In this document: one piece after another, positions 7,289 to 7,347 of the stretch | Layout of the letters: every line of letters starts with the position of its first letter | Position numbering within the stretch: position 1 is the first letter of the stretch | From: an uncultured Eubacteriales bacterium | GTDB taxonomy: Bacteria; Bacillota; Clostridia; Oscillospirales; Oscillospiraceae | Assembly (NCBI GenBank): GCA_900317855.1 | Contig: ONIG01000007.1 | Span: forward strand, 1-64,000 | Direction: 5' to 3' | Length of the DNA: 64,000 nucleotides | Notes under the pieces: model-generated | Told to the model about the DNA's origin: nothing | Database searches by the model: none | What the model saw: the letters and a program-made list of their open reading frames with translations, nothing else | Translations under genes and position numbers: made by a program

Positions 7289-7347
7289 GGGAGAGCGCTT
7301 GAATGGCATTCAAGAGGTCAGCGGTTCGATCCCGCTTATCTCCACCA
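7289..7347 (+). pseudogene. Displaced 3' fragment of a tRNA-Ala(GGC) gene, likely attachment-site remnant
   Basis: The sequence holds the 3' side of a D arm (GGGAGAGC), a perfect anticodon stem CTTGA/TCAAG (7298-7302, 7310-7314) enclosing ATGGCAT with anticodon GGC, a variable loop, a perfect T arm AGCGG-TTCGATC-CCGCT (7320-7336), the acceptor 3' strand TATCTCC and ACCA. The 5' acceptor strand and the 5' half of the D arm are missing. The upstream bases give only a wobble-rich partial match with the wrong spacing and no GCTC. A sharp switch at about 7289 is what is expected when an element integrates into a tRNA gene and carries a copy of its 3' end. The element would then lie to the left. 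Confidence 0.78.

Follow-up and report, generated by a model that had tools for sequence, protein, structure and literature searches.

The stretch of DNA analysed here, hereafter the window, is 64,000 bp long (G000:C18:1–64000) and starts at the first base of its contig. At 7289–7347 (plus strand, as for all window features below) it carries 59 nucleotides of a tRNA-Ala(GGC) gene. An earlier note, made from the letters alone, had taken this segment for a displaced tRNA 3′ part with similarity breaking off inside the D arm, and both observations hold: 59 of 59 bases are identical to G000:C46:815–873 (minus strand), which lies within an intact tRNA-Ala(GGC) (C46:815–890, minus strand) and forms its 3′ part, and the identity begins at GGGAG (7289), within the D arm, and runs to CCA. 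ARAGORN found no complete tRNA in the window, and no Rfam tRNA reached the gathering score there. The segment is followed at 7348–7386 by a hairpin and then a T run, which, as read from the sequence, probably served the original host tRNA gene as terminator. To its left, at 7266–7288, lies GGGGGTGTGTAACCGAATCTTCC, which pairs with a sequence on contig C46 and is assigned as the right attP arm; 7289–7347 is assigned as the host 3′ half (attR). The five bases GGGAG (7289–7293) are common to attP and to the tRNA, and the centre of the dyad described below places the inferred central dinucleotide AG at 7292–7293. Decay of a tRNA gene into a pseudogene was considered as the source of 7289–7347, and is ruled out by the intact copies and by a boundary common to relatives.

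An intact tRNA-Ala(GGC) containing these 59 bp, for which the earlier note suggested looking upstream, is present on C46, and it lies upstream by way of a contig-end overlap only: the last 99 bases of C46, reverse complemented, match the first 99 bases of the window (1–99) exactly. Such an overlap is presumably what a k-mer assembly usually leaves between adjoining contigs, and the proposed join is based on this assembly overlap, not on reads. Read in the direction of the window, C46 has a promoter-like site (TTGACA-17-TAAGAT, C46:1019–991), a 22-nt host tRNA 5′ half (GGGGGTATAGCTCAGCTGGGAG, C46:977–956) and, directly after it, the left attP arm CCCGATTCATTCGGTTACATACCCC. A spacer of about 40 nt, in which no promoter match was found, separates this arm from the complete tRNA-Ala(GGC) (C46:890–815, minus strand of C46), which is followed by a terminator-like hairpin (C46:792–761). 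A serine recombinase gene running towards the tRNA occupies C46:101–685; only its C-terminal 194 aa are encoded there, and over an alignment of 193 aa they share 54% identity with the recombinase that G005 has at the same place. The other two tRNA matches checked in G000 are tRNA-Ala(CGC) and tRNA-Thr, and no tRNA-Ala(GGC) gene other than the carried one was found in this assembly, which is 97% complete. Several copies of tRNA-Ala(GGC) are present in some genomes of the family.

The folding of the leader formed by the host 5′ stub was compared with that of shuffled sequences, giving z −2.25 in G000, −2.33 in a second example and −1.20, not clearly better than shuffles, in a third. At L004:907–977 (minus strand) the stub and left arm can be folded with the tRNA 5′ end paired to ATACCCC of the arm (z −2.25). 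The leader may thus be partly tRNA-like; we claim no structure for it.

The G000 recombinase lacks its catalytic part. At a 6-bp microhomology, TATATC, the truncated gene passes into a 58-aa tyrosine integrase C-terminal fragment at window 2–178 (PF00589, E 7.2e-6, 26.3 bits against a cut-off of 27.1), and this junction was not found in the other nine genomes of the genus; the truncation may be genuine, by deletion, or may have arisen in assembly. The integrase end from which the earlier note had argued is a genuine tyrosine-integrase C-terminus, but it need not be the enzyme responsible, being a fragment within a rearranged interior. The remainder of the element in the window is a cargo gene cluster (348–7203) encoding two ABC2_membrane_3 proteins, assigned by Pfam (496–2643 and 3041–5188), with further ORFs at 2640–3044, 5218–5886 and 6374–7219. 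The cluster is 97% identical, with sharp ends, to G004:C21 over 6,859 bp, and a different gene precedes it in G004. The corresponding cluster of G007 is 76% identical to the cargo and is preceded by a similar upstream gene as in G004. Since elsewhere the best match of G000 to G004 in a 6-kb background probe was 73% (93% to G001), the cargo was probably acquired across lineages. It can be noted separately that 348–7203 appears as a recently transferred cluster that is chromosomal in both G004 and G007. No second copy was found in G000, where the only match was 70% over 589 bp. Neither a relaxase nor a coupling protein was recognised among the window proteins scanned. Both are encoded by a 66-kb element in G124 (PF03432, PF02534), and some elements, like that one, look conjugative from their gene content.

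A comparison with an element-free relative, as the earlier note had proposed, is provided by G001, which has a single intact tRNA at the locus, no fragment and no element. On the left, 7.7 kb of G001 flank ending at GGGAG align with C46 at 96.5% identity; on the right, the G001 flank is 91% identical to window 8196–9832. The flank matches therefore delimit the element as C46:955–1 plus window 100–7288, about 8.1 kb if the contigs are adjacent. Together with the host 5′ half and element left end on C46, the element-free flanks of G001 also bear out the placement of the element to the left of the fragment. Further to the right, a 10.4-kb block (window 9833–20220) is absent from G001 between two well-matched flanks; names drawn from ORF reading give it an IclR-type regulator, 2-oxoacid:ferredoxin oxidoreductase-like genes, a sodium symporter-like gene and a dehydrogenase. 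At about 22244–22292 lies a dispersed repeat of roughly 45 bp; G001 has many copies of it at scattered sites, G003 several.

The idea that 7289–7347 is the usual scar of site-specific integration into a tRNA gene can be accepted in part. The segment does mark an integration boundary. A usual tRNA 3′-end scar is ruled out by the host 5′ half and the whole second tRNA copy: the crossover lies in the D arm, a host 5′ half is left opposite, the complete tRNA is borne by the element, and a large serine recombinase adjoins it.

The stub, i.e. a host 5′ half running into a left arm, was searched for with the pattern TAGCTCRGCTGGGAGCCC, which is present in 37 of 400 genomes of the family, distributed over 25 of 106 genera; in the same family search a reversed-pattern control gave no matches. 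Serial stubs, two or three in a row with a spacing of about 70–175 bp, occur at 11 of the 30 stub loci (L082–L111). At 22 of these 30 loci an uncut tRNA, or at least its 5′ part, comes after the last stub, and the other eight end within 240 bp of it. Both sides are seen in G083, in which three stubs have one tRNA behind them and 3′ scars follow at positions 42226, 64886 and 72100 of the sequence retrieved, of which the third is degenerate. In G003 a 3′ scar is followed by sequence that in G000 comes after the carried tRNA copy, an arrangement that points to insertion into the carried copy. A strict right-scar pattern was matched in only 9 of the 37 stub genomes, and a guessed right-arm pattern gave mostly chance matches. 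The alanine tRNA itself is highly conserved in the family, with matches in 288 of 300 genomes. A tRNA-Ala(CGC) instead of GGC stands beside the same kind of stub at L095, L099, L218, L222 and L225 (the anticodons of L095 and L099 were read from the sequence), so that the target includes other alanine tRNA genes. At L041, near 9868 (G006:C90), there is another tRNA-Ala(GGC) scar in which similarity starts at the anticodon loop; it may reflect a different kind of element using the same gene.

We also approached the family from the recombinase. Alignment of three recombinases yielded 79 named loci, and the recombinases of G083, G087, G005 and Angelakisella contain Resolvase, Recombinase and zinc-ribbon domains. 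A convergent tRNA-Ala lies no more than 700 bp from the recombinase 3′ end at 51 of the 79 loci (46 GGC, 5 CGC), and 47 of these 51 also have the stub, scored with up to two mismatches, at which level a few matches are loose. Among the 28 loci without a tRNA within 700 bp, seven have less than 350 bp of flank, nine have a tRNA-Ala at 719–1264 bp and 12 have none in the scanned stretch. Nine of the 30 stub loci have a detectable relative of the recombinase within the short stretch covered. The element at L122 begins with a RepA_N gene instead, and a recombinase need not, therefore, always adjoin the tRNA. Relatives of the recombinase in collections of phages and plasmids are below 60% identity, and no tRNA was seen at any of seven loci examined in phages, plasmids or viral contigs. 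Elsewhere in the G000 assembly (L291:2563–5758, G000:C49), two serine recombinase genes end near a convergent intact tRNA-Pro(TGG), and no second half was found on that stretch.

A serine integrase half-site extends for 25 bp on each side of the central dinucleotide, according to the relevant part of PMC3783163. When the right and left arms were joined at AG they formed a dyad of about 50 bp, and the best centre was AG in all seven elements analysed. Out of 25 positions, 20 were symmetric in G000, which has the most symmetric dyad of the seven, 18 in Angelakisella, 17 in Neglectibacter, 16 and 15 in the two elements of G083, 17 in G075 and 18 in G124; composition-shuffled arms gave a mean of 6.7, with 0.5% reaching 13. 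Arms of different elements, which are related to each other, are also symmetric when paired (mean 14.6 of 25, range 6–21), and the test reveals the type of site, not which ends belong together. The bases common to attP and attB are GGGAG in G000 and GGAG in some relatives. A search of viral contigs with two patterns gave no match to a circular attP.

The left 1782 bp of the element, comprising recombinase, tRNA and arm, are 99.94–100% identical in seven hosts (Lachnoclostridium An196, Angelakisella massiliensis, two Agathobaculum MAGs, Negativibacillus massiliensis, a Flavonifractor MAG and Anaeromassilibacillus An250), with the identity ending at the crossover; from this comparison L163, which has no arm, was dropped, and L165 is 82% identical. 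Past the crossover, the flanks of the seven are either dissimilar or match only briefly or weakly, and most host 5′ halves differ. The right arm is identical in four of eight hosts (An196, Angelakisella, Negativibacillus and Flavonifractor), and the tRNA and scar, by their coordinates, lie 24,462 bp apart in An196 and 24,461 bp apart in Negativibacillus, where the other tRNA match is tRNA-Ala(TGC). Rejoining the host 5′ and 3′ halves restores seven of seven acceptor pairs in all eight hosts with both halves, as against four of eight when a carried-type 5′ half is set on the host 3′ half. Many cross-combinations also reach seven pairs because the genes are similar, and the halves of An250 (GGGGCAT/ATGCTCC) pair fully only with each other. 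The host 3′ half is unlike the carried copy in six of the eight (An196, Angelakisella, Negativibacillus, An250, MH27-2 and Lapin-005); that of Yanshouia differs in the T stem, but the carried copy there differs too.

We consider it highly probable that 7289–7347 is the right half of a host tRNA-Ala(GGC) cut by a large-serine-recombinase integrative element that carries a complete replacement tRNA. The element would cut the host gene in the D arm (GGG-AG-AGCG). Crossover by a serine integrase leaves both attP arms, of about 25 bp, in the chromosome, and because they stay there the split tRNA cannot be rebuilt by overlap. The element would instead supply a whole tRNA-Ala(GGC) together with a terminator for it, placed at the inner side of the left end, behind the host promoter and 5′ half. 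The host promoter would read through the 22-nt stub and a linker of about 65 nt into the carried tRNA, from which RNase P would trim the leader. As an intact attB, the carried tRNA could be a new target for another element of the same family, each insertion leaving one more 5′ stub on the left and one more 3′ scar on the right, and the replacement tRNA would move between genera together with the element. Both expression of the carried tRNA and recombination by the element are inferred from sequence.

Three other explanations were weighed against this one. A tyrosine-integrase island in the 3′ part of the tRNA, with the intact C46 copy being the host gene restored by overlap and 7289–7347 the displaced fragment, would account for a fragment ending at CCA and for the tyrosine-integrase C-terminus within the element. 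We regard it as very improbable, since a host 5′ half fronted by the host promoter precedes the intact tRNA, base changes first appear in the D arm, the dyad made by the arms is of the serine type and the gene adjoining the tRNA in relatives is a serine recombinase. Nor does an assembly error at C46:931–977 fit well, the same host 5′ half and complete tRNA being found in G003, G005 and many others. The proposal that the second tRNA arose by local duplication of the host gene, or belongs to a tRNA array broken by the insertion, draws on the base-for-base agreement of the carried copy with the host halves in G000, in a tRNA that is in any case highly conserved. We give it hardly any credence in view of the seven near-identical left ends, tRNA included, behind different flanks and of the divergent host 3′ halves in six of eight hosts; local duplication is ruled out by those left ends lying behind different flanks and host halves.

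A greater, although still low, likelihood attaches to two unrelated events, in which the C46 left end and the window right end come from different elements with a mosaic or a wrong join between them. The rearranged interior, with its tyrosine-integrase piece, its 97%-identical cargo of another lineage and its 6-bp microhomology junction, would be expected on this account, and tandem insertions are common. Against it, both ends are of the same kind, none of the other six dyads is as symmetric as that of their arms (20 of 25) and the flanks are contiguous in G001; even if it were true, both ends would still derive from tRNA-splitting elements.

Insertion of a serine element with its own replacement tRNA is thus our preferred reading of the locus. 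With moderate confidence we extend it to a widespread group of serine elements in Oscillospiraceae-like gut bacteria, which would split tRNA-Ala(GGC) in the D arm, provide the only copy of that tRNA and so make the host dependent on them, renew their own landing site, stack behind one promoter and swap the tRNA between genera. Carrying a spare gene would be a concrete answer to how a serine integrase, with both attP arms retained, can target a tRNA gene. If the reading is right, hosts should depend on a mobile element, a core translation gene should be replaced by horizontal transfer, and elements should accrete in tandem at a single site. It also offers the stub GGGAG-CCC as a simple marker of element ends that would be missed by island finders requiring overlap restoration and a tyrosine integrase.

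Among openly licensed PMC papers we found no description of a serine element with a D-arm tRNA split and a complete replacement tRNA; the portions considered of PMC12884075 and PMC6907783 contain nothing similar, and PMC10083194 makes no mention of tRNA. Serine-recombinase integration in tRNA genes is called rare in the section of PMC3218068 used here, which names phiRSM1. That phage, in tRNA-Ser, the mycobacterial AICEs in tRNA-Leu (PMC3218068) and a Paracoccus phage predicted at tRNA-Met (PMC6536676) share with our element a serine enzyme and a tRNA target. Unlike the D-arm cut, the reported insertion of phiRSM1 is at the 3′ end of its target gene; for the AICEs and the Paracoccus phage the cited sections mention neither a D-arm split nor stacked stubs, nor a whole gene that is replaced. 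Serine-recombinase IMEs related to Tn4451 resemble the element in having a single serine recombinase and very short att identity, but, in the account excerpted from PMC5704250, they disrupt dispensable genes, whereas here a tRNA gene is hit and replaced. In the Dehalococcoides ssrA islands with DsiB (PMC3146451, in part), a serine recombinase of about 540 aa near the end, a structured-RNA target and tandem islands are likewise seen; insertion there is in the tmRNA T loop, not the tRNA-Ala(GGC) D arm, the 3′ 20 bp are repeated, and no whole replacement gene is described in that part. Finally, the tRNA and tmRNA islands of the Islander type, as presented in the passages drawn from PMC4383910, also have a tRNA gene target, a displaced fragment at the far end and tandem arrays. 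Those islands use tyrosine integrases, and a fragment in attP restores the gene. Such restoration is absent in G000, where a host 5′ half and, apart from it, a complete copy are present instead, and our element combines a serine recombinase and a D-arm crossover with carriage of the whole gene.
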